This document shows, one piece after another, positions 2,262 to 30,620 of a stretch of DNA of 34,065 bases. The DNA comes from Planctomycetaceae bacterium. Lineage in GTDB: Bacteria > Planctomycetota > Phycisphaerae > Phycisphaerales > SM1A02. Each line of letters starts with the position of its first letter. The stretch's first letter is position 1. A program made the translations under genes and the position numbers. The stretch is from NCBI GenBank assembly GCA_021297795.1, contig JAJTGL010000012.1:1-34065 (forward strand), written 5' to 3'. Under the pieces are notes generated by a model that worked only from the letters and a program-made list of their open reading frames with translations, searched no databases and was not told where the DNA came from.

Positions 2262-2720
2262 GTGCACGACATTCCCATTCCATCGCGTTGGTCCGGCTCC
2301 TACGCCTACTCGTCGCTCGCGGCGATGCCGCCGCAGGCAGATGTGCCGTTTACGATGGAACTGCGACGTGGCCTGCTGGGTGGATTGACAGGGACCATCA
2401 CGGGCACCATCACCGACGGACCGGGCGGCATCCCTGAGCCCGCAGACCTCCGTGGACGCATCAGGTCAGGCGACTTCGAGTTCACCAAGGAGTACCGCTC
2501 GCTCTGGGTCCTCGAGGAAGATGGCGCACAGCAGCGCATCCCGGGGCTTCCTTCGCAGCGGATCCACTACACCGGGCGCATCTCGATCGATGGAACGCGC
2601 CTTGAGGGAGTCTGGCGACTCGAAGCGATGCGACTGCGAGTTCAGTCGGAGTTGGTCGAGATCCCAACCGTCGACGGAACGTGGAGCGCGCGACTCGAGC
2701 CGTCGCAGATCCTTGCTTGA
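2262..2720 (+). CDS. Small predicted beta-barrel protein of unknown function
   Basis: The product is 152 aa, starting with GTG at 2262 behind a GGAG at 2250-2253. There is no signal peptide and no membrane segment. The sequence alternates hydrophobic and polar residues with glycine turns: TGTITGTITD, then IRSGDFEFTKEY, then IHYTGRISIDGTRLEGVW, then VDGTWSARLE near the end. The spacing of G-x-I, F-x-F-x-K-x-Y, Y-x-G and G-x-W resembles small avidin or lipocalin-like barrels. I infer a cytoplasmic beta-barrel, perhaps ligand binding, but no function can be named. The zinc-ribbon gene starts 26 nt downstream on the same strand, so the two may be co-transcribed. Confidence 0.6.
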   Translation: MHDIPIPSRWSGSYAYSSLAAMPPQADVPFTMELRRGLLGGLTGTITGTITDGPGGIPEPADLRGRIRSGDFEFTKEYRSLWVLEEDGAQQRIPGLPSQRIHYTGRISIDGTRLEGVWRLEAMRLRVQSELVEIPTVDGTWSARLEPSQILA

Positions 2721-2745
2721 CTTCGGGCACCACGTACGAACGCAC

Positions 2746-3348
2746 ATGGTGACTCACGGCGAACTCCCCTGCCCCGCCTGCGGATACCAGCGCCGCGGGC
2801 TTGCACATTCGCTTGCATGCCCTGAATGCGGCGCGCGCGGCATTGCGGGCGAAGTCGTCGTGAGCGGCACGCCGACCGAGACTCCGGAAGCGAAGCTCGG
2901 AGATCGGATCTGGAGCCTCTTCCACCTCGTACTCGGCGTGCAGGCGCTGCTGCTTGCGATCTGGTGGGGCGCGACCCCGTGGTCGTCCGATCGAATGTTC
3001 ACACGTGTCCGCGCGATCCTCTTGATCGCCGTGCTCGCGCTCCTTATTGCCGGATGGTTGCGACGGAGGCGACAGAAACGAAGTGGGCTCTCGCTCGAAC
3101 GATGCGTGTGGGAGTTCGGCGATGATGCCGTGACGGTTCGTGAGGACGCGAAGGAATCACGCATCCCGTACGACGACATCGCCGAGGTCTCGGTGCAGAT
3201 CGACTTCGTGAAGCGCCATACGCGCGTGACGTTGGTCACGATGGGACAGTCGCTCGGATCCGTCGGACTCCCCGCGCTCATCCTCCACGGCTCGCTCGAC
3301 GTGCAGCGCGCCATCGTCACGGAGATGAGGCAACGCACGAAGCGCTGA
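2746..3348 (+). CDS. Membrane zinc-ribbon protein with C-terminal PH-like region (paralogue A)
   Basis: The product is 200 aa. The ATG at 2746 gives MVTHGELPCPACGYQRRG, with Cys9, Cys12, Cys25 and Cys28 forming a treble-clef or ribbon zinc site (CPxCG ... CPECGA). Two hydrophobic segments follow (about 57-75 and 85-105), then a basic stretch RRRRQKR. The last 90 residues (WEFGDDAVTVREDAKESRIPYDDIAEVSVQ and onward) alternate like a bacterial PH-type domain. The same architecture and many of the same residues recur in the product of 18381-19043. Likely an inner-membrane protein with the ribbon in the cytoplasm; partner and role are unknown. It converges on the hydrolase gene ending at 3378, with 29 nt between the stops. 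Confidence 0.7.
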   Translation: MVTHGELPCPACGYQRRGLAHSLACPECGARGIAGEVVVSGTPTETPEAKLGDRIWSLFHLVLGVQALLLAIWWGATPWSSDRMFTRVRAILLIAVLALLIAGWLRRRRQKRSGLSLERCVWEFGDDAVTVREDAKESRIPYDDIAEVSVQIDFVKRHTRVTLVTMGQSLGSVGLPALILHGSLDVQRAIVTEMRQRTKR

Positions 3349-3377: not shown

Positions 3378-4376
3378 TCAGGCAAACCGTAGCACCCACG
3401 CCGCAAGTGTCTCGGGAATCCGTTCGGGCGCCTCGCCGGCGGTGAACAGGTGGCTTGTTCCGCCGAGCCTGCAGTACGTCACGCCCGATGGGGGCGATTG
3501 CCCTTCCCCCACCGCGACATCGTGCACTTCCATGTTGGCCGCCCGCGCGATACGCGAGCACAGCGTGTCGCAGGCGAGCCCTTCCGCCACGGCCAGGAAC
3601 GTGGGAACGCGCGCTTCCGCGAGCGTGATCCACGCGTCGACCAGATCACGCGAGACGCCATCCGGCATGCGACCGCGCTCGAGACGTTCGTAGACGCCTC
3701 GTGTCAGCCGCGCGCACGCGGAAGACCAACGCCGACGCTCGAGCCCGCGCAGCGCTCGTTCGATCGACGCCCGAACGCCCGCACGCGCCATTCCATTCGC
3801 GATTCTTGCATCCAGCAAATCCGGTTCAAGCAGGATGAGCCCCGCGCATCGACGGCCCATGCGCCGCGCTCCACGGAGACTCACGACCGCACCCGCGCAG
3901 AGTCCACCGACGAGGAATCGTTCGACGCCATGCCGCGCGCACGCTTGTTCAACGACCTCCGCGACCACATCATCGAGAGGATCGTCCTGTGCAGCGAGGC
4001 GAAAGTCCGCAAGGCGTTGATAGGAGCGCCCCGTGGAGTCGCCGACCCCCGGAAGATCAAAACGCAACGAACAGAAGCCCGCCGCCGCCACGCGATCGGC
4101 GATGCGTACCGAAAGATCGCTGTTTCCGGCGCGGGGAGCAGGCCCGGCGTTGAGGAGCAACAATCCAACCCGCGAGGAGGCCGATCCGTCGGCGGGAACA
4201 TGGCGAGTCGCAAGCATCGTCTCCCCACGCGATCGGAACACCTCGATCGCGCGACGCACATCCCGACGAGGCTCGGACCAGGGCGCCGAGGCTGGCGCTC
4301 CGGACGGCATCGGAACCCGCACGGACGAGCTTGCGCTCGCCACCCCTTGGTTCGCCGTCTCTACCGAGGCGTGCAT
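3378..4376 (-). CDS. Alpha/beta hydrolase with Cys nucleophile elbow (XrtA hydrolase 1-like)
   Basis: The product is 332 aa. The ATG at 4376 sits behind GGTGGA and overlaps the stop of the preceding gene (4361) by 16 nt, indicating translational coupling. It has the alpha/beta hydrolase core: strand GLLLLNAGP (71-79), oxyanion region, FDLPGVGDSTG (106-116), and a nucleophile elbow GGLCAGA with Cys160 where most relatives have Ser. His309 (GGTSH) is a candidate catalytic base. A Cys elbow of the form G-L-C-x-G-A is, as I recall, typical of the exosortase A system-associated hydrolase 1 family. Likely substrate: an acyl thioester or ester made by the upstream genes (inference). It is the last gene of the seven-gene operon. 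Confidence 0.75.
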   Translation of the reverse strand: MHASVETANQGVASASSSVRVPMPSGAPASAPWSEPRRDVRRAIEVFRSRGETMLATRHVPADGSASSRVGLLLLNAGPAPRAGNSDLSVRIADRVAAAGFCSLRFDLPGVGDSTGRSYQRLADFRLAAQDDPLDDVVAEVVEQACARHGVERFLVGGLCAGAVVSLRGARRMGRRCAGLILLEPDLLDARIANGMARAGVRASIERALRGLERRRWSSACARLTRGVYERLERGRMPDGVSRDLVDAWITLAEARVPTFLAVAEGLACDTLCSRIARAANMEVHDVAVGEGQSPPSGVTYCRLGGTSHLFTAGEAPERIPETLAAWVLRFA

Positions 4377-5416
4377 GATTCCACCCCCGATCCTCTGCGG
4401 GCGCCTGCCGACGCGAGCACGTTGCCTTCGATCCAGGACGCGATTGCGTCGATGAGCGCGTGGTCCTCCGGAACCAGCCGCGGACTCGACTCCCAGAACC
4501 GCCGGGCACGGACCCGCCGCGTCCTGGAAAGTCCCTCGGAGGAACCCGCGTTCGAACAACGGTCGCCGGAATCCGATCGATCCTCGCAGGCCGGTCGGTT
4601 GTCGGGGCGATGCCGGGCGTCGCGGGTCTGTGCGCCTGTCTCGCGAGGCGCCGCCTCGCCGGACAGCTCGAATCGCGCCCACGGCCGCGGCTCGTCTCGA
4701 CCGGGAGTCGGAAACCGATGCGCCTCCGCCTCTTCCACCAACCGCGGTGTCCAGAGATAGCCGTCGATGCGCGCAACCGCTCCCGCGGCCACGGCGGAGG
4801 AGCCGGTCCGTGCGCGCGCCGTGCCGACCCCTGTCGGCGAGTGCCCCTCGTGCACGAGCCCGGCGACCAGCGCACGTCTCGACGCATCCCGTAGCAACGA
4901 CCGGCCGTCGCCCGCGCCGATGAAGATCGCCGCATCACCGAGGCCTTCCGCGAAGAGTTCTCCGCCGATCAGCGCTCCGATCCGCACGCCGACGATCATC
5001 GTGCGCGCGTCCGTTTCATTCGTCGATCGGAACGCGTGGAGCACGCGCCGTGCATCATCGGTCCACAGGCCGATGGTGGCCTCCTCGAAGGTACCCGTGC
5101 TCTCGCCGACGCCACGGTGGTCGTAGCGCAACACCTCATACCCGCGCTGCGCCAACTGCCGAGACAACTCGACCATCGTCCGATGCGCGCGTTCCCGTTC
5201 GGCGCCGATCGGACCGATGAAGAGGATGCGACCGATGCATCGACCACGGTCGAGATCACAGGCTGCTCCTCCCTCCGTGAGCCACGGGCGCGACCGCGCG
5301 AATGCGAGCTGCACCCCATCGATCGGGAGAAATCCATGATCCTCGACGATCCCGTCGGCGAGATCCTGCAACGTGACGTCAGGCTCGAGATCCAACGGGC
5401 GCCCCCCTCTCCGCAT
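4361..5416 (-). CDS. Alpha/beta hydrolase-fold protein with Arg in place of the nucleophile (XrtA hydrolase 2-like)
   Basis: The product is 351 aa. The ATG at 5416 follows AGGAGG at a 3-nt gap and lies inside the 3' end of the SGNH gene (38-nt overlap). The fold is recognisable from GRILFIGPIGAERERAH (62-78), YDHRGVGESTG (98-108) and the elbow region IVGVRIGALIG (141-151). At the nucleophile position Gly-x-Ser-x-Gly reads G-V-R145-I-G, so no Ser or Cys is present. This matches my memory of exosortase A system-associated hydrolase 2 proteins (G-L-R-L-G-A). It is either a pseudoenzyme or uses other chemistry, perhaps as a partner of the Cys-elbow hydrolase encoded next. The C-terminal third is Arg-rich and poorly conserved in appearance. 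Confidence is high for the fold, lower for the role. Confidence 0.7.
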   Translation of the reverse strand: MRRGGRPLDLEPDVTLQDLADGIVEDHGFLPIDGVQLAFARSRPWLTEGGAACDLDRGRCIGRILFIGPIGAERERAHRTMVELSRQLAQRGYEVLRYDHRGVGESTGTFEEATIGLWTDDARRVLHAFRSTNETDARTMIVGVRIGALIGGELFAEGLGDAAIFIGAGDGRSLLRDASRRALVAGLVHEGHSPTGVGTARARTGSSAVAAGAVARIDGYLWTPRLVEEAEAHRFPTPGRDEPRPWARFELSGEAAPRETGAQTRDARHRPDNRPACEDRSDSGDRCSNAGSSEGLSRTRRVRARRFWESSPRLVPEDHALIDAIASWIEGNVLASAGARRGSGVESCTPR

Positions 5417-6506
5417 CGTCCTCCTGCAGTCCGCCTGGCTTCACGTCACGCCTCACGTCACGTCTCACGTCACGCTTCTCGTCACGCTTCTCCCGCAGGT
5501 CCGCGGGCGGACCCTCCCGGAAATCCCTCGGTCGTCGATCTGCGCCCCGTCCGTCGGGCTCGTTTCCGCGCGAGCCCGAGGCGGACGGGGACGCATGCTC
5601 GGCAAGCGCGAGCAGCAACGCGCGCGCAACCACCACCTGACCGACCTCGTTGAGATGACCTCCGTCCGACGTATAGCCTGCGCAGAGGACGGGCCACGCG
5701 ACGCCGGACACCGTCGTCGTGACCTCGGATCCGTCGAGTTCGCGCGACTCCGCCCGTGCGATGTCCACGATCTCGCGCTTCGGATAGCGCGCGCGCAGCA
5801 GCAGGTTGTAGCGGCCACGCGCGGCGTTCGACGGCCCCGTGCCTCCACCCGCCAGCCGCTTGACCGCGCCCTTCGCCCCCTGATCGGCCGACTTCAGCGG
5901 CACGGTCGCATGGAGCACCGTGAGGCCGGGTCGAGCCTTCCGGATCCGCTCCACCATCGCGGCGTAGCGGGCGAACAGCGCGTCGACATCCGTGGACGCC
6001 GAGATGTCGGCGTAGCAGAGCTTGACGAACGCGACATCGATCGCCTCGCCACCCGCACCGGTGACGAAGCGCTCGAACGAATCGAACTTCGCGGCCGGAT
6101 CGCCGTTCGACCCGGCGGGACCGTGCACGAGGCCCGGGGATTCGAATGCTCCGCGCGCGGTGGTGGGCGTTTCGCGCGACGGGGCGACCAGCCTTCGCGT
6201 CGCGATGCCTATCGCGGGCCGTTCACGGAGGATCGCACCCAGGCCGCGCATCATGTTGCCACCCACGGACTGGTGGGCGAAGTAGATGCGGCGCTCCCGA
6301 AGGAGCGCCCAACGCTCGGCTGGCACGGCGTCGATCTCGGCAAGCCCGACCCGCGAGAGGGCGTCGGCGTGCGCGTCCGGCCGCTCCGGCGACTTCGGGC
6401 CCGGCGGCGCGCCCTCCACGCCACCCGACCGCGGTGGAGCGATCAGACCGATCCCGACAAGCGAACTTGCGATCGACGCGAACGCGACACGATGCAGCGA
6501 CCTCAT
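5379..6506 (-). CDS. SGNH-like hydrolase, probably exported, with charged repeat tail
   Basis: The product is 375 aa. The ATG at 6506 overlaps the TGA of the NAD-synthetase-like gene as ATGA. Residues 1-25 look like a signal peptide or membrane anchor (MRSLHRVAFASIASSLVGIGLIA in character). The core has RIYFAHQSVGGN (73-84), where Ser80 replaces the usual GDS block, FVKLCYADIS (160-169), and DGGHLNEVG (281-289) supplying the Asp281/His284 pair. HQSVG plus DGGHLN is the pattern of a subgroup of SGNH hydrolases acting on ester-linked acyl groups of sugars or lipids (family knowledge). The last 75 residues are charged and contain a 4-residue period RRDV/EKRD encoded by a tandem DNA repeat. It is the only gene of the operon with an export signal, so the product may act outside the membrane. 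Confidence 0.75.
   Translation of the reverse strand: MRSLHRVAFASIASSLVGIGLIAPPRSGGVEGAPPGPKSPERPDAHADALSRVGLAEIDAVPAERWALLRERRIYFAHQSVGGNMMRGLGAILRERPAIGIATRRLVAPSRETPTTARGAFESPGLVHGPAGSNGDPAAKFDSFERFVTGAGGEAIDVAFVKLCYADISASTDVDALFARYAAMVERIRKARPGLTVLHATVPLKSADQGAKGAVKRLAGGGTGPSNAARGRYNLLLRARYPKREIVDIARAESRELDGSEVTTTVSGVAWPVLCAGYTSDGGHLNEVGQVVVARALLLALAEHASPSASGSRGNEPDGRGADRRPRDFREGPPADLREKRDEKRDVRRDVRRDVKPGGLQEDDAERGAPVGSRA
5444..5491. repeat. Four 12-bp tandem repeats at the SGNH/hydrolase 2 junction
   Basis: The units read CGTCACGCCTCA, CGTCACGTCTCA, CGTCACGCTTCT and CGTCACGCTTCT on the + strand. On the coding (-) strand they encode the EKRD/VRRD repeat in the tail of the SGNH protein. 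They end 28 nt before the ATG (5416) of the next gene. The period is a multiple of three, so copy-number change would keep the reading frame. Confidence 0.85.
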
Positions 6507-7627
6507 CGCGAGCCCCCTCTCTCGTACGCTCCGCGGCACGGCGCGCCCTCGACGAGCAGCGCGGCGCCATCGAGCCGTTCCGCCACACGTCGCTTGCGGT
6601 CGATGTCGTTGTACACACGTCCGATGGCCTCCGGCGTCATGCCGGCCATGCGCGCGGCGCGCTCGACCGGGAGGCCCTCGGCGCGGCACCAGTGGATGAC
6701 GTCGAGCGTGGCGTACGGCAAGCCGAAGTAGAACTCCTGCTGCGACTGGGCGAGGCTGTACGTGTCGGTGGTCGGGATCTGACCGGTGATGGACTCGGGA
6801 AGCCCGAGGTGCCGTCCGATCGCGAAGACCTCGGACTTGTAGAGATGGGCGATCGGCTTGAGATCCGCGAGTCCATCCCCGCCACGCACGAAGAAGCCGA
6901 GCGCGTGCTCGAGGATGTTCGGTGTACCGAGCACGGCGAGGTTGTGCGCGTCGGCCACCGTGTACTCGACGGTCTTCCGGACACGCTGCTTGAGATTCGT
7001 CGCCGCGACGACCTCGAGGTACGCATCCACCGGCAGACGCGCCATCTCGATCGCGCCTCCGCGAGCGGAGAGCGACGCGACCACGTGGAAGTGGCTGACC
7101 CGATCGCTGCCAGCGACGTCTTCGGCGATCGTGATCTTGAAACGATCGCCCGGACGGAACGCAGGCAGGACGCGCGAGATCGCGACATCGCGCCGGCGGT
7201 AGCAGCCGAAGGACTCGAGCATCGGTGTGATGTCGGTCACCTCGGGCCGGACACCGGCAACCGCGCACGCCGCGCGACCGAGCTCGAGGCTCGAGGGCGA
7301 ACTCTCCCGTTCCGGCATCAAGAGCGCCGCCACCCGGTCCCTGCCCAGCGCACGCGCGGCGAGGACGACCGAGACCGACGAATCGATGCCACCGCTCACA
7401 CCGAGCACGACACCGCGCCGACGAAGACGGGTGCCGACCGCGTCACGGATGGCCCTTTCGATCCTCTCGCACTCCGCGGCGGGATCGATCGCCGGCATGC
7501 CGGCATCAGGGGTGCGCGCGGCCGAGGCCGCGGAACGCGGCTCGATGATGTTGACGACCGGAGCTTCCGGCGGGGCGGATGTCGGCCGTGAAACGGTCCC
7601 GAGGGATGCGAGGAAGGCTTGCGTCAT
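6503..7627 (-). CDS. NAD-synthetase-like ATP pyrophosphatase (ammonia-dependent NadE fold)
   Basis: The product is 374 aa. The ATG at 7627 overlaps the amidotransferase stop as ATGA. The PP-loop VLGVSGGIDSSVSV (74-87) is the N-type ATP pyrophosphatase signature. YLEVVAATNLKQRVRK and DGLADLKPIAHLYKSEVF are NadE-like active-site segments. NadE converts deamido-NAD, ATP and ammonia to NAD; this protein has no glutaminase domain and carries about 70 extra N-terminal residues. Its place between an Asn-synthase-type amidotransferase and hydrolases, rather than near NAD genes, suggests a repurposed amide ligase that adenylates a carboxylate and adds ammonia. That is inference: a housekeeping NadE cannot be excluded, since I see only one copy and cannot see the rest of the genome. 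Confidence 0.75.
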   Translation of the reverse strand: MTQAFLASLGTVSRPTSAPPEAPVVNIIEPRSAASAARTPDAGMPAIDPAAECERIERAIRDAVGTRLRRRGVVLGVSGGIDSSVSVVLAARALGRDRVAALLMPERESSPSSLELGRAACAVAGVRPEVTDITPMLESFGCYRRRDVAISRVLPAFRPGDRFKITIAEDVAGSDRVSHFHVVASLSARGGAIEMARLPVDAYLEVVAATNLKQRVRKTVEYTVADAHNLAVLGTPNILEHALGFFVRGGDGLADLKPIAHLYKSEVFAIGRHLGLPESITGQIPTTDTYSLAQSQQEFYFGLPYATLDVIHWCRAEGLPVERAARMAGMTPEAIGRVYNDIDRKRRVAERLDGAALLVEGAPCRGAYERGGSR

Positions 7628-9795
7628 CGATCGATCTCCGTGCATGCGACGGCGGCTTCCGGACGGATGCATGCGCTGCGCCCGGGGTTCTGGAGGAACG
7701 GCGCCTGCCGCGCCGCGATCGGCGCAGACGTCCGTCGTTCGATGAAGCGCTCGTGCCACAGCGTGAGCGTGAGCAGTCCGAAGGCGGCCATCTCCTCGCG
7801 CTCGGAGAGCGGATGCGAGGCGGATGCATCGAAGGCACGCGCCGCGAGCGCCCGCGCGGCACGCGCATCGACCAGTGGATTGCGCGCGAGGCTTCGATCG
7901 GAGAGCGCGTCCCGGACGCGCGACGGCGCGCTCGCGCCGAAGAACGCCCGCTGGATCGGCGAGCGGTACGGCCACTTCGGGCGCGACGCGATCTCCGCGG
8001 GGAGCAGCCCGCGCGCGATGCGCCGGAGCAGCGGCTTCTCGCGCAAGCCGACGAGACGCTCCTCGGTGCGGAGCGACGCGGCCTCCGCGGCAAGCGCACC
8101 GTCGAGGTACGGATACCGCCCCTCGACGCCGCTCGCCATCAGCATGCGGTCACCCTGGCTCGAGAGGAGATAGGGCACCATGAAGGCTCCGATCTCGAGC
8201 TCCTGCGCGCGGTCGAGCTCGTCGAGCTGTCCCCACGCCGGAGGAAGCGACGACGCGATGCCTTCCTCGAAGGAACGCCGATCGAGCGCCTCGCGGATCT
8301 CGGGGGCGAGAAACCTCAGCATCCACGAACCCGCCTGCCAGCGCAGCGCGTGCGAGGCGAATGGACCGGCTCCGTCGGCGGAGCTTGGCTCGAGGTCGCG
8401 CACGTGCCCCGCGAGGAAGGCGCTCCACATCGCCGATCCCCCGCCGACCCGCCTCGGCTGCTGCCGATGGAGCCGCGAGGCAAGGGCCCGCCGCATCGCG
8501 CTCGAGGGATCCCTCGCGAGGAACGCGCGGTAGCGCGACTCCTTGAAGATGTCGTAGCCTCCGAAGAGTTCATCCGCTCCCTCGCCCGTGAGCACCACGC
8601 GGATTCCCTGCGCACGGACGAACCGGGCGAGCAGCAGCATCGGCAGCGGCCCCGCACGCAGGAGCGGCGTCTCCGCATGCGCGATCGCCGCGTCGAGCGC
8701 GCCGACGAGCTCCTCCCGCCCGACCACGACCTCGCGGTGATCGGTGCCGAGGGCCTCCACCACCCGACGCTGCCAGGTTCCCTCGTCGAAACCGCATGCA
8801 TCCCCCGCACCGGCCGCGCATCCGCCGCGTTCGTCCCTGAATCGGATCGAGAACGTCACCGGCCGATCCGCACCCGATCGCCGGAGCTCGTCGGACATCA
8901 GGGCGACGAGGAGCGATGAATCGAGCCCACCCGAGAGATATGCCCCGACGGGAATGTCGGCGCGGAGGCGCAGTCGAACCGCGGTGCGAAGCGAATCGGC
9001 GACGCGCCGCTCACGCGACACGGCGTCGTTCGACGAGACGTCGGTGTTCCCGCTCCGACGCATCCGAAGCCGCGCGTAGGTCCGGCACTCCGCGATCCCG
9101 TTCCGACCCTGCAGCGCCTCGAGGTGCGCCATCCGCCAACCCCGCGAGCCGATCGCATCGAGTGCGAACGCGACGCTTCGACCCGGCTCCAGCGATTCGA
9201 CGCCTTCGTAGACGGTGCGCGAACCTGGTGACGACCAGTTGCGGAAGACCGCGTTGATCCCCGCGGGATCCGTCCGCGCATCGACCCGGCCGCTCGCGAA
9301 GATCGCCTTCGCCTCCGATGCGAACACGACGGAATCAGGTAACCGCGCCAGCAGGAGCGGGCAGATACCCGCCCGGTCGCGGACGAGGTGGAGCAGCCGT
9401 CTGTTCCGGTCGACGAGCGCGAGCGCGAACTGTCCCTCGAGGCGCTCCCACGCATCCGCACCCCATCGCTCGTACGCGGCGAGGATCACCTCGGTGTCGC
9501 TGTGCGTCGTGAACCCGCGGCCATCGGCCTCGAGTTCCCGACGGAGCTCGACATGATTGAAGACCTCGCCGTTGTACGCGATCGTCAGGTCGCGCGAGGC
9601 GCTCGACATCGGCTGCGCTCCTCCCTCGCGATCGAGGACAGCGAGGCGCGCGTGCGCGAGTCCGATCCGACCCGCGCAGAACACGCCACTTCCATCCGGA
9701 CCACGATGCGCGATCGATCGCGCCATGCGCACGAGTTCCTCGCGCGAAGGCGGCGGCGCATCCGGACCGGTCGAGATGCCTGCGAGTCCGCACAC
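7624..9795 (-). CDS. Asparagine-synthase-type glutamine amidotransferase
   Basis: The product is 723 aa. The start is a GTG at 9793-9795, one base after the stop of the ligase gene; it places Cys2 (V/M-C-G-L-A-G) exactly where class II glutaminases need their N-terminal nucleophile, so longer upstream frames are rejected. The glutaminase domain shows RSIAHRGPDGSG (26-37) and AYNGEVFNHVELR (73-85). The synthetase domain shows the PP-loop LSGGLDSS (287-294) and LTGEGADELFGGY near residue 425. Glutamine nitrogen would be delivered to an adenylated carboxylate on an acceptor. At 723 aa it is longer than AsnB (about 550-630), with an extended C-terminus. XrtA-linked loci typically carry such an amidotransferase, which supports a role in exopolysaccharide or carrier-bound product amidation rather than asparagine supply. 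Confidence 0.85.
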   Translation of the reverse strand: MCGLAGISTGPDAPPPSREELVRMARSIAHRGPDGSGVFCAGRIGLAHARLAVLDREGGAQPMSSASRDLTIAYNGEVFNHVELRRELEADGRGFTTHSDTEVILAAYERWGADAWERLEGQFALALVDRNRRLLHLVRDRAGICPLLLARLPDSVVFASEAKAIFASGRVDARTDPAGINAVFRNWSSPGSRTVYEGVESLEPGRSVAFALDAIGSRGWRMAHLEALQGRNGIAECRTYARLRMRRSGNTDVSSNDAVSRERRVADSLRTAVRLRLRADIPVGAYLSGGLDSSLLVALMSDELRRSGADRPVTFSIRFRDERGGCAAGAGDACGFDEGTWQRRVVEALGTDHREVVVGREELVGALDAAIAHAETPLLRAGPLPMLLLARFVRAQGIRVVLTGEGADELFGGYDIFKESRYRAFLARDPSSAMRRALASRLHRQQPRRVGGGSAMWSAFLAGHVRDLEPSSADGAGPFASHALRWQAGSWMLRFLAPEIREALDRRSFEEGIASSLPPAWGQLDELDRAQELEIGAFMVPYLLSSQGDRMLMASGVEGRYPYLDGALAAEAASLRTEERLVGLREKPLLRRIARGLLPAEIASRPKWPYRSPIQRAFFGASAPSRVRDALSDRSLARNPLVDARAARALAARAFDASASHPLSEREEMAAFGLLTLTLWHERFIERRTSAPIAARQAPFLQNPGRSACIRPEAAVACTEIDR

Positions 9796-9796
9796 G

Positions 9797-11398
9797 TCAG
9801 CCCCCACTCCCGACAAGCGCCCGGCGCACGACCTTTCCGTTCGAGGTGCGGGGAATCTCGCGCCGGAACTCGATGAATCTCGGCTGGAGCCCAGGTTCGA
9901 GCGCTTCGCGGCAACTCGCCCGGATCGCACGCTCGTCGATCGATGCTCCCTCCTCGACGACGACCACGGCCTTGATCGCGGTTCCATCCTCCTCGTGCTC
10001 GACGCCGGTCACCGCCGCGTCGACGACTCCGGCGATCTCGGCGAGGACACGCTCGATCGCCGCGGGCGCGACCTTCTCGCCCCGGCACTTGAAGATCTCG
10101 TCCTCGCGCCCGAGGAAGTAGAGGAGCCCGGATTGATCCATGCGGAACCGGTCGCCGGTCCGAAGGCAGCGCTCGAATCCCGACGCGTGGTCGGATGGCG
10201 AGCACATGAACCGCTCGATGGACTCGCGCGTCCGTCGCCAATAGCCACGCGCGACGTTCGCCCCGCGCACGACGAGCTCGCCCTCGCTTCCCGGCGGCAG
10301 CCGATGCCCGTTCGAATCGACGAGGAAGACTTCGGAGTTCGGAATCGCCCTTCCGACCGAATCGGGGTAGGCGCGCGCGAGACGTGGCTCGAGCGTCGAA
10401 GCGCGGGAACACTCGGTCTGCCCGTACATCAGGTGCAGCCGGACCTCCGGAAGCAGTTCGGTGAGACGCAGCGCGTGCGCCGGAGGCAGCCCCGCGGCGG
10501 CGTTCGTGACGGCGCGGAGCGCGGAGAGATCGACGTCGACGCGCGCGAGCGTCGCGTTCATGCGCGCGATCATCGTGGGCACCGCGACCAGCACCGTGGC
10601 GCGGAGCTGCTCGAGCCGCCGCATGGCGTCGTACGGGAACGCGAACGATCGCTCGAGCACCAGCGTCGCACCGCTCCGAAGCGCGGCGAACGACTGCAGC
10701 AGCCCGTAGCTGAACGCGATCGGAACCGCGCAGGAGACGACCTCGGGCGCCGACGCCTGCGCGTGGCCGACGTACTCCGCGATGACCGCCGTCGTGTTGA
10801 GGAGGTTCGCGTGCGTCAGCATCACGCCCTTCGGCTCGCCCGTGGTGCCGGACGTGTAGATGATCGCCGCGATGTCCGCATCGATCGCACCCGCATCGCG
10901 GGCCACCACCGACGGCGTCGAACCGAGCCGACCGAATTCCGGGGCGACCCCGAATGGCCGTCCGAATCGCTCGTCGAGCGTCAAGCCCTGCCATGAACCT
11001 GCGGAAGACTCGACGACCTGGGCGCCGTCGAGGCGCGCGGCCTCGAGCGCCGCGAGGGTCGCGCGCGGCGCCACGACCACGCTCGGCGTGCAATCGGCGA
11101 GGACGGCGCCCAGCCGGGGCATGCGCACATCGCCGGGGATCGGCACGAGCACGGCGCCAGCGCGCAGGACGGCGAGGTATGCGACGATCGACTCGATGGC
11201 GTTCGGAGCAACGACTGCGACGCGGTCGCCTCGCCGGACACCGGCGCGGAGAAGGACGAGCGCGGCGCGGCGCGTCGATTCCGCGAGGTCCTTCCAATCG
11301 ACGAATCGTTCACCGTCGACGATCGCGATCCGCACGGCGCCATGCGCGCGGGAGACGTCGGCCGCACGGTCGAGGATGATGTCATCGATGAGTTGCAC
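9797..11398 (-). CDS. AMP-forming acyl-CoA/acyl-ACP ligase (XrtA-associated type)
   Basis: The product is 533 aa. I choose the GTG at 11396-11398 (V-Q-L-I-D-D) because AGGGGAA lies about 5 nt upstream and it overlaps the ACP gene by only 17 nt; an ATG at 11434 has no visible ribosome site. ANL-superfamily motifs are clear: A3 YTSGTTGEPKGVM (about 181-193), A5 LMYGQTECSR, A7 LRTGDRF, A8 GREDEIFKCRGEKVAP, and A10 TSNGKVVRRAL with the catalytic lysine near the end. The enzyme activates a carboxylic acid with ATP to an acyl-adenylate and passes it to a thiol. The ACP encoded immediately upstream is the natural acceptor. Position and order match acyl ligases of exosortase A loci. Acid specificity cannot be read from sequence. 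Confidence 0.85.
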   Translation of the reverse strand: MQLIDDIILDRAADVSRAHGAVRIAIVDGERFVDWKDLAESTRRAALVLLRAGVRRGDRVAVVAPNAIESIVAYLAVLRAGAVLVPIPGDVRMPRLGAVLADCTPSVVVAPRATLAALEAARLDGAQVVESSAGSWQGLTLDERFGRPFGVAPEFGRLGSTPSVVARDAGAIDADIAAIIYTSGTTGEPKGVMLTHANLLNTTAVIAEYVGHAQASAPEVVSCAVPIAFSYGLLQSFAALRSGATLVLERSFAFPYDAMRRLEQLRATVLVAVPTMIARMNATLARVDVDLSALRAVTNAAAGLPPAHALRLTELLPEVRLHLMYGQTECSRASTLEPRLARAYPDSVGRAIPNSEVFLVDSNGHRLPPGSEGELVVRGANVARGYWRRTRESIERFMCSPSDHASGFERCLRTGDRFRMDQSGLLYFLGREDEIFKCRGEKVAPAAIERVLAEIAGVVDAAVTGVEHEEDGTAIKAVVVVEEGASIDERAIRASCREALEPGLQPRFIEFRREIPRTSNGKVVRRALVGSGG

Positions 11399-11741
11399 GC
11401 GATTCCCCTGCGTTCGGTGTGTTCCGTCCGACATCCATCGGCTGCGTCCGACCCGTCCCGCTCGCCTCGGAGGCCGCCGTGCGCTTCCGAGCGATGAACG
11501 CGACCACCCGCTCGATCGAGTCGAGATTCGCAGGGATCAACTCCTCGTCGGCGAATCCAACGCCGAACTCCTCCTCGACGAAGAGGACGAGGTCCATCGC
11601 TCCGGTCGAGTCGAGTACGCCCTCGCCGAGAAGCGAGGCGCGCGGATCGATCTCCGCATCGGGATCGAAGAGGAATCTCGAGGCGAGAAAGCGGCGGACG
11701 GACTCGCCATCCGCGGAGACGGCTCCAAGCTCTTCCTTCAT
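11382..11741 (-). CDS. Acyl carrier protein
   Basis: The product is 119 aa. The ATG at 11741 follows GGAG with about 7 nt spacing. The segment LLGEGVLDSTGAMDLVLFVEEEFG (37-60, described by key residues) contains Asp44-Ser45, with Ser45 the expected phosphopantetheine attachment site; most ACPs have DSL, here DST. The four-helix ACP core covers residues 10-90. The last 25 residues are a polar tail not found in fatty-acid ACPs. A dedicated carrier next to a dedicated ligase implies a carrier-bound acyl intermediate for the downstream enzymes. It is the first gene of the operon, and a TAGACT -10-like element lies 50 nt upstream. The 208 nt between this gene and the beta-helix gene (11742-11949) contain only that promoter. 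Confidence 0.85.
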   Translation of the reverse strand: MKEELGAVSADGESVRRFLASRFLFDPDAEIDPRASLLGEGVLDSTGAMDLVLFVEEEFGVGFADEELIPANLDSIERVVAFIARKRTAASEASGTGRTQPMDVGRNTPNAGESRATHR

Positions 11742-11949: not shown

Positions 11950-14187
11950 TCAGCGAGGTCCGACCGGCCCGACGCGCACGCCGTCGCACTCCGCAACGCC
12001 ATCCCGCGCCTGTCGCGCGAGTTCATCGCACAGCGCGGGCACGCGCGCCTCGTCGACCTCGTGCCGACGCGTGCCTTCGATCCGCACGCACTCGGTGTCG
12101 TCGATGCGGCCGAGCGGCGTGGCGACGAGCACGTTGCCCACGATCGCGCTGCCGACCGGGCGGCCGAAGCGGTCGGTGAGGTACGTGGCGAGCGCGGGGA
12201 ACCGCGAGCGCCACGGCTCGTCGCCGATCGGCATCGCGGCGAGGTTTCGGTGCAGCGTCGACGACTCGGGATCGGCGATGTGCGGCGCCATCCAGCCGAT
12301 GCCGCGCGCGTCGTAGGAGATCGCCCGGCGACACCCGGCGAAGATGTTCGCGCGGATCATGTTGTCGCGCCCGCCACCGGCGAGGATGCCCCAGTTGCAG
12401 TCGACGAACAGGTTGCCCTCGACCAGGAAGCCGCTCGCCATATCGTCGAGGTACACCGCGTTCTGGAACCGCGCGTCGCTGCCCTCGATCGCGGAGAAGA
12501 GGTTGCCGCGGATCACGTTGCCGTGGCTCGTCCAGTCGCGGCCGCAGTAGACGGCCCCCGCGTCACCCGTCTCGAGCACCACGTGGTGGATGTCGTTCGC
12601 CTCGATCACGTGGTCGTTCCCGCGCAGGAAGACCGCGATATGCGGGTGCTGGGAAATCTCGTTGCGCACCACCCGGTGACCCACGCCCTCGAGGTCGATC
12701 GCGGGGTTGTAGCTGCGCAGGACGCGCCCGCAGCCGACGAAGACGCAATCCTCGATCGCACTGCCCGAGGCGACGAGCATCTTGCGATCGCCCCCGACGA
12801 GCCGCACGCCGCGCCCACCGACGTCCTTGAACAGGCAGCGCGCCGCGCGGATCGCGACGCCTTCCGCATCGACGGCGAACGTGCCGAGGTTCTGGAATCG
12901 GCACTCCTCGATCGCGAGGCGCTCGACACCGCGTGCTTCGATCGCGCCGCCGCGCGTCCGCTCGAAGGCGATCCCCGCGATGCGCACGTCGCGCGCGCCG
13001 TCCACGCGCATCAACGGCTCGGCGAGAAGCGACAGCGACCGCAGCGCCTCGCGCAGCGCATCGGGAATCCAGGCAACGATCCTCCCACCGGTGCGATCGA
13101 TCCAGTACTCGCCGGGCGCATCGAGTTCGGCCAGGATGTTGATCACGCGGAAGCGCCCGCGCGCGGCGAGCCCGTAGCGATGCGGCATCCCGAGGCGCAC
13201 CACGCCCGAGGCGGCGTCGATCGATGCGATCGGAAGCACCTCGTCCGACCAGTCCCAGTTCCAGTAGCCGTGCGCCCACGCGTCTCTCTCCCCCGCGGTC
13301 TCGGCGCCGGCCCAGCGCGCCGCGCGCTCGCGGTCGGCGGGAGCGAAGGCTCCGGCGCGCGGCGCCTCGATGCGTCGCTCGGCGGCCGGCATGTCGGACT
13401 CGGCGGCTCGCGGCACCGAGCCGCGATCGACGAGTTCCCCGATCGCAGCGAATCCCTCGTTCGGCCAGCGCGCAGGCTCGAGCGCGACTTCGCCCGCGAA
13501 GAGCTCGCTTCGCACCGCGGTCACCGGCACCGCGTGACCGCTGTGGACGGGGCCTGAGAGCCCGCCCGACCAGGTGCGCAGATCGTCCGCGTCCAACTCT
13601 GCAACCAACACGTGCGCCCGCGCTTCGTGCGGCACGCGCGCAAGGAGCGCCTCGTCGGGCACGCGCCAGGATTCCGGCGCGACGGTCATCGCGCCAACGA
13701 GCGTCGCACCCGGAGCAGTCGCCTCGATCGAGAGCGGCCCGATCGCAGCACCAAGCACGACGCCGCGGCGAACCTCGTGCACGCCTGGCGCCAGTCGGAT
13801 CGTCCACGGCTCGGTCGAGCCCGCCGCGCGTGCCGCCTCGACGAGCGCGACCGCAGCGGCGAGGCTCGAGACCGAGGGATGCGGCACGCCGTCGGTGGTC
13901 ATGGGCGCCGGGTCCGCGCGCGGTGCGACCCACACCACGCGCGAAGCGATCGGCGGGGACTCAGGAACTGCGACCGCCGCCACGCCGGGGCCTGTCACCG
14001 AACTCGGCGCCTGCGCCGGCGTCTCGATTGCAGATTCGACCTCGCCTTGCCCGTTGACGGGCGATGCCTCTGGAACTGCTCCGGGCCGCTCGGTGGCCTC
14101 GGTCTTCGAGGCCACTGACGCGCAGCCGCCCTCCAGCATCGCGATGCACGCGAAGAGCGCGAAGGACCGAGGGAGCCGCACCGGCAT
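11950..14187 (-). CDS. Secreted right-handed parallel beta-helix protein
   Basis: The product is 745 aa. I use the ATG at 14187, because the -10-like TAGCGT ends 6 nt before it; a GTG at 14193 abuts that element. The N-terminus is a lipoprotein-like signal (LFACIAMLEGGC, Cys22, though E-G-G is not an ideal lipobox), followed by a Pro/Ala/Thr-rich linker to about residue 70. Residues 100-180 (IRLAPGVHEVRRGVVLG) begin a pectate-lyase-type helix, and the body from about 330 to 640 shows coil repeats such as GVAIRAARCLFKDVG, HVIEANDIHHV and NVIRGNLFSAIEG. Such proteins bind or cleave polysaccharides (lyases, glycosidases, epimerases). Being on the same strand 208 nt upstream of the acyl operon, it may act on the same glycan (inference). 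Catalytic residues not assigned. Confidence 0.8.
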   Translation of the reverse strand: MPVRLPRSFALFACIAMLEGGCASVASKTEATERPGAVPEASPVNGQGEVESAIETPAQAPSSVTGPGVAAVAVPESPPIASRVVWVAPRADPAPMTTDGVPHPSVSSLAAAVALVEAARAAGSTEPWTIRLAPGVHEVRRGVVLGAAIGPLSIEATAPGATLVGAMTVAPESWRVPDEALLARVPHEARAHVLVAELDADDLRTWSGGLSGPVHSGHAVPVTAVRSELFAGEVALEPARWPNEGFAAIGELVDRGSVPRAAESDMPAAERRIEAPRAGAFAPADRERAARWAGAETAGERDAWAHGYWNWDWSDEVLPIASIDAASGVVRLGMPHRYGLAARGRFRVINILAELDAPGEYWIDRTGGRIVAWIPDALREALRSLSLLAEPLMRVDGARDVRIAGIAFERTRGGAIEARGVERLAIEECRFQNLGTFAVDAEGVAIRAARCLFKDVGGRGVRLVGGDRKMLVASGSAIEDCVFVGCGRVLRSYNPAIDLEGVGHRVVRNEISQHPHIAVFLRGNDHVIEANDIHHVVLETGDAGAVYCGRDWTSHGNVIRGNLFSAIEGSDARFQNAVYLDDMASGFLVEGNLFVDCNWGILAGGGRDNMIRANIFAGCRRAISYDARGIGWMAPHIADPESSTLHRNLAAMPIGDEPWRSRFPALATYLTDRFGRPVGSAIVGNVLVATPLGRIDDTECVRIEGTRRHEVDEARVPALCDELARQARDGVAECDGVRVGPVGPR

Positions 14188-14193
14188 CCTCAC

Positions 14194-20103: not shown

Positions 20104-20258
20104 GAACGCGGTTGTTGCGAACTGAGCGCACCTTCGTCGCCCGCACTCCAACGGATGGTTCCGGTGGTGGCAAGACGCTCCGCGCGTCGCGGCTGTCGCT
20201 CGCACGTTGCGGGCGGAGAAGGCCCCAACGATCGCAAGGATCTTTCAGAAGGACACCC

Positions 20259-21245
20259 ATGCTGACCACCTCGCTCGCCCTCGCTCTCACCGCCGGCCTC
20301 GGCATCGCCCCCCCGACCCAGGCGACAACCACGACGACGACCCAGACGACTCCGTCCAAGGCCGCTGCCCCGGCCGCAACCGGCACGATCGTCGACACTG
20401 CTGTCGCCGCCGGTTCCTTCAAGACGCTCGTCGCCGCTGTCCAGGCCGCTGGCCTCGTCGAGACGCTCTCGGGCAAGGGTCCGTTCACCGTGTTCGCTCC
20501 GACCGACGAGGCGTTCGCGAAGCTGCCGGCCGGTACCGTCGAGATGCTCCTGAAGCCTGAGAACAAGGCCAAGCTCGCCGCGATCCTCACCTACCACGTC
20601 GTTCCGGGCAGCGTCATGGCCGCCGACGTCGTGAAGCTGAAGAACGCCGGCACCGCGCAGGGCCAGCGCGTCGACATCAAGGTCGACGGCAAGAAGGTCA
20701 TGGTCGACGGCGCGAACGTCGTCAAGACCGACATCGCCTGCACGAACGGCGTCATCCACGTGATCGACTCCGTCATCCTCCCGTCCGACAAGACGATCGT
20801 CGAGATCGCCGCGTCGAACGGCTCGTTCAACACGCTCGTCGCCGCGGTGAAGGCCGCCGGCCTCGTCGAGACGCTCTCGGGCAAGGGTCCGTTCACCGTG
20901 CTCGCCCCGACCGACGAGGCGTTCGCGAAGCTGCCGCCGGGCACGCTCGACATGCTCCTCAAGCCGGAGAACAAGCAGCAGCTCGTCGACATCCTCACCT
21001 ACCACGTCGTTCCGGCCGCCGCGTACGCCGATCAGGTCGTCACGATGAGCCAGGTCCCGACCGTGCTCAAGACCCCGATCAAGGTCACCGTCAAGGACGG
21101 CAAGGTCATGCTTGGCGCGGCGACCGTGGTCGCCACCGACATCGAGGCCTCGAACGGCGTCATCCACGTGGTCGACACCGTCATCCTCCCGACCCCGGCC
21201 AACAAGGCGCAGGCGTCGGTCGATGCGAGCAGCTCGAAGAACTGA
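20259..21245 (+). CDS. Secreted protein with two tandem fasciclin (FAS1) domains
   Basis: The product is 328 aa; the ATG at 20259 follows AGAAGGA. Residues 1-22 are a signal peptide (hydrophobic [12 protein letters not shown]), then a Thr-rich linker. FAS1 domain 1 spans about 42-175 and domain 2 about 178-315. Each has the H1 motif FTV(F/L)[11 protein letters not shown], the YHVVP strand and the H2 motif NGVIHV(I/V)D-(S/T)VILP. FAS1 domains mediate adhesion to surfaces or polymers. The two copies are 136 codons apart and share a 42-bp run of identical DNA, so they arose by a recent tandem duplication or are kept alike by gene conversion. No membrane anchor or sorting signal is seen at the C-terminus. 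The gene ends before a strong terminator, so it is probably a single-gene unit. Confidence 0.92.
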
Positions 21246-29420: not shown

Positions 29421-29541
29421 ACCGTGTTGCGGCGCCGCGCCACGCGAAACCCCGAATTCACGGGTCGTCCCGCCGGAGCGACCGGACCAACTCGCGCGAC
29501 CGCACCGAGTCCCAGAACCGCCCGCGCTGGCCGTGCGACCG

Positions 29542-29547
29542 TACAGT
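29542..29547 (+). promoter_or_regulatory. Putative -10 element TACAGT for the polysaccharide operon
   Basis: TACAGT is followed by GGAGGC and the GTG at 29554. GGAGGC looks like a ribosome site but is directly next to the start codon, so a leaderless start is more likely. The rest of 29407-29541 shows no gene. Confidence 0.45.
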
Positions 29548-29553
29548 GGAGGC

Positions 29554-30582
29554 GTGTCCAGCGCTCCGGTCCATCCGCGCGGCCCTGCCGCGCCGCGTCT
29601 CATCGTCGCCATCACCGGCGCGAACGGCTTCGTCGGCGGCGAGATCGCGCGCATGCACAGCGAGCGCGGCGACGAGGTGCGCGCGCTTTCCCGGCGCGGC
29701 AGCGGCTCGTCCGACGCGCTCGCAACCGCTCTCTCCTGGCACACGGCCGATCTCGCGAACGACGACCGCCGCACGGAAGACACACTGCGTCGCTTCGTCG
29801 ACGGCGCCGACATCGTCTACCACGCCGCGGCGGAGCTGGCGGCCCCCACTCGGATGCACGCCACCAACGTCGAAGGCACTATTCGGCTCGCCCGCGCGGC
29901 GCTCGGGCGGTCCGGCGCGTTTCTTCACCTGAGTTCCGTCGGCGTGTACGGACCCGGCCGCGGACGGCGGATCGACGAGCGCACGCCGCCCGCTCCTGTC
30001 AATCCATACGAGCGGTCGAAGGCGCTCGCCGACGCCGAGCTGACTCGGCTCGCGACCGAGTCCGGCCTCGACCTCCGCATCCTGCGTCCCTCGAACGTGA
30101 TCGGCGCGCGCATGGTCAACGGTTCGTTCCGCGCGCTCGTCGACGCGGTGCGACGCGGGCGCTTCATCGAGATCGTCTCGGAAGGCGCCATGTCGACCTA
30201 CGTCGACGTGCGCGACGTGGCGCGCGCCGCACAACTCGTCGCGACGCAGCCGTCCGCACGGGGGCGGATCTACGACGTGTCGTGCGACTGTCCGTGGACC
30301 GATCTTCTCCGCGCGATCGAAGACGCGGTCGGCGCGCGTAGGCGCTCGATGCGCGCGCCGCTTCTCCCGATGCGCGCCCTCGCACGGATCGGCGATCTCG
30401 CCCGCCTCGCGGGGTTCCGTCGTGTTCCACTCACGACCTCGCGCCTCGAGGCGCTGATCTCGCGGACGTCGTACCCGAGCACGCGTCTCCGCGAGGAACT
30501 CGGGTTTGCCTTCGAGCGACCGATGCCCGATGCTGCCGCGGAACTCGCACGGCGATGGACCCGCGGAGACGGGGACGTATGA
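29554..30582 (+). CDS. NAD-dependent nucleotide-sugar epimerase/dehydratase (extended SDR)
   Basis: The product is 342 aa from the GTG at 29554; an earlier GTG at 29533 lies upstream of the TACAGT element and is not used. The Rossmann loop is TGANGFVG (21-28), followed by HLSSVGVYGPG (about 125-135) and the catalytic Tyr152/Lys156 in NPYERSK. Extended SDRs of this type oxidise, epimerise or dehydrate UDP- or GDP-sugars in the cytoplasm. The C-terminal 80 residues are Arg-rich and probably make the substrate-binding part. It opens the operon with a glycosyltransferase, a second SDR and a sugar-phosphate transferase, so it likely supplies a sugar for surface polysaccharide. The stop TGA overlaps the first of three mini-ORFs as ATGA. 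Confidence 0.85.
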   Translation: MSSAPVHPRGPAAPRLIVAITGANGFVGGEIARMHSERGDEVRALSRRGSGSSDALATALSWHTADLANDDRRTEDTLRRFVDGADIVYHAAAELAAPTRMHATNVEGTIRLARAALGRSGAFLHLSSVGVYGPGRGRRIDERTPPAPVNPYERSKALADAELTRLATESGLDLRILRPSNVIGARMVNGSFRALVDAVRRGRFIEIVSEGAMSTYVDVRDVARAAQLVATQPSARGRIYDVSCDCPWTDLLRAIEDAVGARRRSMRAPLLPMRALARIGDLARLAGFRRVPLTTSRLEALISRTSYPSTRLREELGFAFERPMPDAAAELARRWTRGDGDV

Positions 30583-30620
30583 GAAACGTGGCATGAGGAA
30601 CGTGGCATGAAGAGCGCGGC
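30579..30620 (+). repeat. Three 14-bp repeats forming a chain of ATGA-overlapping 5-codon mini-ORFs
   Basis: The units are ATGAGAAACGTGGC, ATGAGGAACGTGGC and ATGAAGAGCGCGGC. Each starts an ORF of ATG plus four codons (M-R-N-V-A, M-R-N-V-A, M-K-S-A-A) that ends in a TGA overlapping the next ATG. They span 30579-30596, 30593-30610 and 30607-30624. The first ATG overlaps the stop of the epimerase, and the last TGA overlaps the ATG of the glycosyltransferase (30621). No Shine-Dalgarno sequence is evident inside, so a terminating ribosome could restart step by step. Confidence 0.8.

Follow-up and report, generated by a model that had tools for sequence, protein, structure and literature searches.

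A seven-gene planctomycete operon contains a four-gene cassette joining an acyl carrier protein and a ligase to AsnB-type and NadE-like enzymes

What is made by an operon in which an acyl carrier protein (ACP) and an acyl ligase stand beside enzymes that match models of asparagine and NAD synthases, and does such an operon belong to the exosortase A (XrtA) accessory genes that it resembles? The question is raised by a stretch of 34,065 nucleotides from a Planctomycetaceae bacterium of the order Phycisphaerales (contig JAJTGL010000012.1, hereafter the window), whose minus strand carries, by open reading frame (ORF) analysis, seven consecutive genes at positions 3378-11741. They encode an ACP, an AMP-forming ligase, an AsnB-type amidotransferase, a NadE-like enzyme, an SGNH hydrolase and two alpha/beta hydrolase-like proteins of the types called hydrolase 2 and hydrolase 1. 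A preliminary description of this DNA had seen in them a set resembling the XrtA accessory genes, to which a NadE-like enzyme and an exported SGNH enzyme had been added, and had proposed that a carrier-bound acyl product is amidated and then transferred or released. We find that the ACP, the ligase, the AsnB-type amidotransferase and an insertion-bearing NadE paralog form a core that is separable from exosortases, and that the operon is related to the XrtA set without being a member of it; we class it with the carrier-protein acyl-modification pathways. Our best explanation of the whole, which we hold tentatively, is that this core, extended by a lineage-specific transfer module, makes a carrier-bound acyl amide and transfers it to an acceptor, probably a cell-surface polysaccharide.

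The NadE-like gene belongs to a four-gene core

The NadE-like protein passes the NCBIfam model NF002048 with 392.5 bits (cutoff 313), and within the phylum of the window only 11 of 294 genomes have a protein over this cutoff. We also looked at 11 further neighbourhoods from 10 genomes: eight have an ACP and an AsnB-type gene near the NadE-like gene, seven of these with a ligase as well, and three have none of them. Scanning the genomes of 84,980 species yielded at least 566 confirmed relatives of the NadE-like protein, the best 80 of which make up our locus set; the set therefore favours close relatives of the protein of the window. Searched by tblastn with the window proteins, these 80 loci show the ligase in 67, the ACP in 67 and the AsnB-type gene in 66, while hydrolase 1 and the SGNH gene are found in seven each and hydrolase 2 in six. 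All four core genes are together in 56 of the 80, with 13 different orders or orientations. Of the 49 loci with at least 5.5 kb of sequence on both sides, 41 hold the complete set inside 8 kb, and three of the other eight lack any partner. By record titles, the cassette occurs in at least six phyla, that is, in Planctomycetota, Pseudomonadota, Acidobacteriota, Myxococcota, Verrucomicrobiota and in Longimicrobiales, which we take to belong to Gemmatimonadota.

As a control we searched 20 other 20-kb stretches, taken at hand-chosen positions from six cassette genomes, and found no ACP, AsnB-type or NadE-like match and one weak ligase match. Given the partner counts in the 80 loci, the clustering in 41 of 49 and these control stretches, we reject a stray origin of the NadE-like gene in the operon. 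The idea of a NadE-like enzyme added to an XrtA set must thus be given up, as this gene keeps company with ACP, ligase and AsnB-type genes at the frequencies given above; the SGNH enzyme, on the contrary, is indeed an addition, being lineage-specific. Pairwise protein distances point in the same direction as the clustering. Across 36 loci (of 40 with four full-length proteins, four near-duplicates being dropped) they co-vary for all six pairs, from r = 0.73 for NadE-AsnB, the highest, to r = 0.30 for ligase-ACP, the lowest, and none of 2000 permutations reached the observed value for any pair, although a common history of the species may contribute to co-variation of this kind.

The whole seven-gene arrangement was also found outside the window, and is thus not due to chance alone. 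The order ACP-ligase-AsnB-NadE-SGNH-hydrolase 2-hydrolase 1 is kept in two congeners, G011 (locus L040, whose contig ends inside the last gene) and G002 (L041/L095), and recurs with all seven genes in L096, from a Phycisphaerales genome that is further removed; in a third congener, G005 (L039/L094), the last five genes are present up to the contig end. Strong matches to hydrolase 2 beyond the window's own genome came, in a search of 151 genomes, only from three of the 15 other genomes of the genus. In L096, HlyD-type and RND exporter genes lie directly downstream of the operon (L096:13383-17794).

A homologous operon on pSymB of Sinorhizobium meliloti

At E 1e-50 or better, the NadE-like gene is present in 115 plasmid records, 75 of them from Sinorhizobium. 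In annotated records from both S. medicae and S. meliloti the operon is a bare asnB-ACP-ligase-nadE unit, and the pSymB cassette of S. meliloti 1021 encodes proteins with 48% (NadE), 41% (ligase), 39% (AsnB) and 41% (ACP) identity to those of the window. The pSymB record that we used carries no gene annotation in the cassette stretch. Searching this megaplasmid with PF00501 gave a single match, the cassette ligase, and searching it with PF00550 gave two other carrier-type matches and missed the cassette ACP. Because it is the sole PF00501 candidate on pSymB, the cassette ligase is almost certainly SMb20650. In PMC7232532, SMb20650 is described as a pSymB gene with an AMP-binding motif, cotranscribed with the ACP gene SMb20651, whose product was acylated in E. 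coli on co-expression with AcpS (credited there to Ramos-Vega 2009); the same paper states that SMb20650 cannot replace FadD. The function of SMb20651 is said, in PMC5686131, to need further investigation. A description of the four genes as one pathway was not found in the literature, subscription journals lying largely outside the search.

Families and residues of the seven proteins

The families first assigned to the seven proteins were upheld by NCBIfam and Pfam, the SGNH fold being supported by a structural model, with PF13472 weak and below cutoff. The ACP reaches PF00550 with 23.7 bits (cutoff 20.8), its NCBIfam matches all being below cutoff, and a DST or DSM motif surrounds the carrier serine in all 62 carrier proteins that were aligned. 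The amidotransferase contains an SGGLDSS-type motif and scores above the TIGR01536 cutoff (414.8 bits, cutoff 267.1); the AsnB-type N-terminal cysteine is found in 63 of 67 aligned proteins, the remaining four being gapped there, and the closest solved structure is 7ylz, a hydroxyamidotransferase, at 188 bits. The NadE-like protein is modelled with a NadE fold (predicted local distance difference test score of 85). Between two of its motifs lie 61-65 residues in 84 of 84 homologs, as compared with about 12 in the P. horikoshii structure, and this inserted stretch is modelled as one helix and three strands. As it is equally long outside the cassette, it marks the NF002048 subfamily and not the cassette.

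The ligases are mixed in the residue that matches Asp235 of A-domains, which is Asp in 32, Ser in 15, Gly in 12 and another residue in 12 of 71 ligases, and Ser in the window. The cassette ligases also split into divergent groups in a tree whose rooting is unusable, with the antisense frames OWN_L002-0 and OWN_L003+0 at the midpoint, and from which a second XrtA ligase (L199) was left out on account of a stop upstream. Considering the mixed residue and the divergent groups, the ligase substrates probably differ among cassettes. Two candidates, the ligase as a clear amino-acid loader and as a clear non-loader, were both dropped on account of the same mixed position, and the window's Ser is likewise not taken to point to a substrate other than an amino acid.

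In the SGNH protein, residues S80, N134, D281 and H284 are invariant in nine of nine sequences, so that the Ser, Asn and Asp-x-x-His blocks are present. NCBIfam gave no match for this protein, and its profile reached a best E of only 0.12 among solved structures; Foldseek placed its model with SGNH-type structures (best E 1.2e-5), namely sialate O-acetylesterases and platelet-activating factor acetylhydrolases. Its hydrophobic N-terminus, judged by eye, suggests that it is probably exported. We also noticed that its C-terminal tail (window 5430-5490) contains short in-frame repeats, KRDVRRDVRRDVK, which are absent from eight aligned relatives and fall in a low-confidence part of the model. In hydrolase 1, Cys160 and His309 are invariant (9/9), and hydrolase 2 has Arg145 at the nucleophile position in 10 of 11 sequences; judged by these residues, the alpha/beta hydrolases are a matched Cys/Arg pair.

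Genes beside the cassette and the nature of the product

We clustered neighbouring genes over 90 loci (duplicates L039, L041 and L068 left out, L065 not included), using ORFs read from stop to stop, by which some antisense frames are mislabelled and short genes are missed. A GNAT-like gene, with weak or absent Pfam support, is near the cassette in 16 of these loci and stands before AsnB in at least three (L117, L130, L139), a hydrolase-2-type gene is found in ten and an SGNH gene in eight; by plain count, no locus has both a GNAT-like and a hydrolase-2-type gene. In eight loci (L118, L126, L135, L142, L154, L156, L167, L173) a gene for a PrmC-like amide methyltransferase adjoins the cassette. 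Elsewhere in each of the eight genomes there is another TIGR03534 match, which exceeds the cutoff except in G489, and such a paralog beside the cassette points to an amide-bearing product.

Polysaccharide genes were sought as eight kinds: polysaccharide deacetylase, GT4, GT2, tyrosine kinase, EpsB-type transferase, Wzy, export protein and Wzz. One or more of these kinds are present in 21 of the 50 loci that reach 15 kb, and two or more in 15 of them; of the 20 control stretches, three have a single kind (GT4) and none has two. The queries were drawn from cassette loci, excluding in each case those of the locus itself, and this biases the comparison towards the loci. The polysaccharide setting is enriched, not general.

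The alternative that survives best is that a small amide metabolite, such as a natural product, an osmolyte or a signal, is built on the carrier and then released and exported, instead of being fixed to a glycan. This would suit the 29 of 50 long loci with none of the eight kinds, the Sinorhizobium operon, which consists of the bare four genes with no annotated glycan genes adjoining, the HlyD and RND exporter genes after the operon in L096, and the hydroxyamidotransferase as nearest structure of the AsnB-type protein. It does not suit the excess of polysaccharide genes over the controls or the resemblance of the SGNH model to sugar esterases, and an exporter beside the seven-gene operon was met once only. 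We therefore consider a free metabolite rather unlikely, and keep transfer to a surface acceptor as the preferred reading.

The core is related to the exosortase A accessory genes and separable from exosortases

The resemblance to XrtA accessory genes stands as to which models match best and falls as to how well they match. The best NCBIfam models are indeed XrtA models for the ligase (TIGR03098, 343.6 bits, cutoff 592.35), hydrolase 1 (TIGR03100, 60.1 bits, cutoff 168.45) and hydrolase 2 (TIGR03101, 58.9 bits, cutoff 202.75), but all three scores are far below cutoff; likewise, the amidotransferase does not reach TIGR03104, the AsnO of the N-acetylglutaminylglutamine amide pathway (304.5 bits, cutoff 570.1), or TIGR03108 (302.2 bits, cutoff 816.9). 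The pyridoxal phosphate (PLP) decarboxylase of the XrtA set is missing, as had been described, since its model TIGR03099 is not among the matches of the seven proteins. The absence of an exosortase, also described before, is true of the operon and of the window, but not of the genome, in which PF09721 matches two genes; these lie only on contigs C83 and C10, the window being contig C90, so that there is no linkage.

Exosortases and cassette are also distributed differently. In the genus, 15 of 16 genomes have an exosortase match and four of 16 the operon. No exosortase was found in six of 12 cassette genomes of a first set, four of these six being single-contig, nor in 22 of 48 cassette genomes of a larger set (50 of the 80 loci were searched, 26 with and 24 without, and the NadE-only L112 and L123, both without, were excluded); most of the 48 genomes are drafts, therefore some of the absences may be gaps. 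At the best 80 loci themselves, an exosortase match is present at four (tblastn with four queries; a fifth, from L093, looks antisense). XrtA PLP decarboxylase and hydrolase 1 over cutoff occur in the same two of 39 genomes with a NadE-like gene, away from the cassette, and four 20-kb stretches around or beside those XrtA genes gave ligase or hydrolase matches or none, and no ACP, AsnB-type or NadE-like match. The two sets nonetheless have traits in common: the Cys motif of hydrolase 1 is also found in an XrtA hydrolase 1 that scores above its cutoff, the Arg motif recurs in hydrolase-2-type neighbours, and some cassettes are inside XrtA-type exopolysaccharide loci (L121, L158, L163) or have an exosortase in the locus (L165), showing that cassette and XrtA set share a setting.

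A plain XrtA set is ruled out by the sub-cutoff scores, the decarboxylase test and the exosortase test. A diverged XrtA accessory set, serving exosortases encoded elsewhere in the genome, would explain why TIGR03098, TIGR03100 and TIGR03101 are the best library matches, why the Cys/Arg signature is common to both, why some cassettes lie in XrtA-type loci and why exosortases are present in 26 of 50 genomes, with two in the genome of the window. We consider this improbable, as every XrtA score is below cutoff, exosortases are lacking from many cassette genomes, if often drafts, and outnumber the operon in the genus, and the over-cutoff hydrolase 1 and decarboxylase are confined to two genomes and stand off the cassette.

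NadE-like genes outside the cassette

Solo NadE-like loci, a call made by tblastn alone, include a clade of NF002048 proteins (L112, L123, L128, L100). Three of these (L112, L123, L128) have a common neighbourhood, annotated on L112, in which genes for phosphotransacetylase, acetate kinase, phosphofructokinase and an Rrf2 regulator are found; an adenosine deaminase gene is also among the neighbours in one such family. With some solo loci beside housekeeping genes, the NF002048 subfamily may include true NAD synthases, and part of it may thus make NAD.

That the NadE-like and AsnB-type enzymes of the operon just make NAD and asparagine, as nitrogen housekeeping, would follow from the annotation of the models that they pass (NAD(+) synthase for NF002048, asparagine synthase for TIGR01536), from the housekeeping neighbours of some NF002048 members and from the window's own 83%-complete genome, in which no second full NadE was found, but is very improbable considering that a separate, higher-scoring NAD_synthase match is present in the operon-bearing congeners G002 and G005 (a partial separate match only in congener G011) and in seven of eight cassette genomes of other genera (G198 having 92.9 bits only), and that the NadE-like gene, so rare in its phylum, travels with ACP and ligase.

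A possible pathway

The proposal of a carrier-bound acyl product, amidated and then transferred, is kept as the best reading. The linkage of the core, the co-variation of distances and the acylation of the S. meliloti carrier count for it, as do the PrmC-like neighbours for the amide, the polysaccharide enrichment for the glycan and the invariant Cys and His for the transfer. In a first step, the ligase would activate a small carboxylic acid as acyl-AMP and load it on the carrier protein, as reported for the S. meliloti homologs. The AsnB-type enzyme would then, with glutamine, amidate a free carboxylate, which could belong either to the tethered acyl group or to the acceptor. The NadE-like enzyme may perform a second ATP- and ammonia-dependent activation and amidation of a carboxylate in the same pathway, and this third step is the least certain. 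In the fourth, the Cys-type hydrolase 1 would move the acyl group from carrier to acceptor, the Arg-type hydrolase 2 being a putative non-hydrolytic partner; elsewhere, this transfer may fall to the GNAT-like protein. Finally, the exported SGNH enzyme would edit or re-transfer the acyl group outside the cell, the most likely acceptor being a cell-surface polysaccharide.

Several observations weigh against this pathway. The mixed Asp235-equivalent position and the divergent ligase groups that serve the cassette do not single out an acyl group. Seven of 84 NadE-like loci have no ACP, ligase or AsnB nearby, some of them beside housekeeping genes, and the candidate transfer modules (GNAT-like, hydrolase-2-type and SGNH) cover a minority of the 90 loci. 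For the glycan, the long loci free of the eight kinds and the bare Sinorhizobium operon, with no polysaccharide gene annotated beside it, count on the negative side too, and in the window no polysaccharide gene is directly beside the operon, its glycosyltransferase being about 19 kb off.

Taken further, the pathway would imply that a NadE-family enzyme has turned from dinucleotide amidation to amidation in a carrier pathway, together with an AsnB-type partner, that acyl amides are placed on surface glycans and that the XrtA accessory genes are one offshoot; it would then be a pathway not described before, spread over six phyla or more and present in a model symbiont. This joint proposal is speculative and unlikely to be right in all its parts. 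Seeing the four genes as one pathway nonetheless makes a genetically tractable test possible, given a cassette that is present in most of the best 80 loci and on the S. meliloti megaplasmid, and could help to explain the XrtA accessory enzymes, for which we know of no substrates. In addition, nadE and asnB labels in such operons may mislead metabolic models about NAD or asparagine biosynthesis.

The operon and its surroundings in the window

The preliminary description had every junction overlapping or separated by a single base, which is correct: the gaps measured from ACP to hydrolase 1 are -17, +1, -4, -4, -38 and -16 bases. The first of these is counted from the ligase start GTG 11398; with the alternative ATG 11434, the ACP-ligase overlap becomes -53. 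The third-position GC of the seven genes is 0.71-0.86.

Table 1. The seven genes of the operon, listed in the direction of transcription, with window coordinates
Product	Length (aa)	Position	Strand	Family or support
ACP, phosphopantetheine Ser in LDST motif	119	11382..11741	-	PF00550
AMP-forming acyl ligase, predicted acyl-ACP synthetase	533 (545 from ATG 11434)	9797..11398	-	PF00501/PF13193
AsnB-type glutamine amidotransferase	723	7624..9795	-	PF13537+PF00733, TIGR01536
NadE-family ATP pyrophosphatase, PRK00876/NF002048 type, without glutaminase domain	374	6503..7627	-	NF002048
SGNH hydrolase, hydrophobic N-terminus	375	5379..6506	-	invariant Ser, Asn, Asp and His residues and model
Alpha/beta hydrolase-like, hydrolase 2 type, Arg at nucleophile elbow	351	4361..5416	-	TIGR03101, below cutoff
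Alpha/beta hydrolase-like, hydrolase 1 type, Cys nucleophile	332	3378..4376	-	TIGR03100, below cutoff

The gene next upstream, also on the minus strand, encodes a large right-handed beta-helix protein (11953-14193) and ends at 11950, 208 bases before the ACP start; downstream there is a convergent plus-strand ORF at 2452-3348. Further away, a small sugar-pathway cluster at 29533-32911 has a GT4 glycosyltransferase between two NAD-dependent epimerase-type genes, and a fasciclin protein with two domains is encoded at 20112-21245. Scanning the window for Rfam families and for tRNAs gave no matches.

Comparison with known systems

A close counterpart is the S. meliloti operon of SMb20650 and SMb20651, a homologous asnB-ACP-ligase-nadE set whose ligase, according to PMC7232532, acylates the carrier in vivo, and which differs in belonging to another phylum and in having no SGNH or hydrolase genes beside it; the S. 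medicae ligase, a close copy, has Asp at the position where the window has Ser. The XrtA set (TIGR03098, TIGR03099, TIGR03100/TIGR03101, TIGR03108) has a related ligase, an amidotransferase and a Cys/Arg hydrolase pair in common with the operon, and an exopolysaccharide setting in common with part of the cassette loci. On the contrary, the operon scores below the XrtA cutoffs, has a NadE-like enzyme in its core and lacks the decarboxylase, the cassette is often without an exosortase, and in the two genomes having both, XrtA set and cassette are separate loci.

The dlt system for D-alanylation consists of an A-domain-like ligase, a carrier protein and an extracytoplasmic SGNH-type protein. Ligase, carrier and SGNH-type protein are thus common to both systems, whereas the operon has two amidotransferases more, and an MBOAT O-acyltransferase, a trait of dlt, was not found among its seven proteins by NCBIfam and Pfam.

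The shuttles CmaE, SyrC and CysB have an alpha/beta hydrolase fold with a Cys nucleophile, and Cys plus His is their defining trait. According to PMC7966384 and PMC8748450, they transfer an aminoacyl group away from its carrier protein, their role being in non-ribosomal peptide assembly; the likeness to hydrolase 1 is one of residues and of the proposed role, not of sequence comparison. By this analogy, a Cys-type hydrolase 1 acting as a transferase fits the shuttles.

A further parallel is the Wbp/Vim system of P. gingivalis, in which, according to passages of PMC7468200, an AsnB-type amidotransferase, a deacetylase and a presumed aminoacyl transferase give an amidated and acylated sugar, a 2-N-seryl, 3-N-acetylglucuronamide. 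It differs from the operon in that a carrier protein, a ligase and a NadE-like enzyme are not mentioned in those passages. By analogy, this sugar shows that a product like the one proposed here has a precedent.

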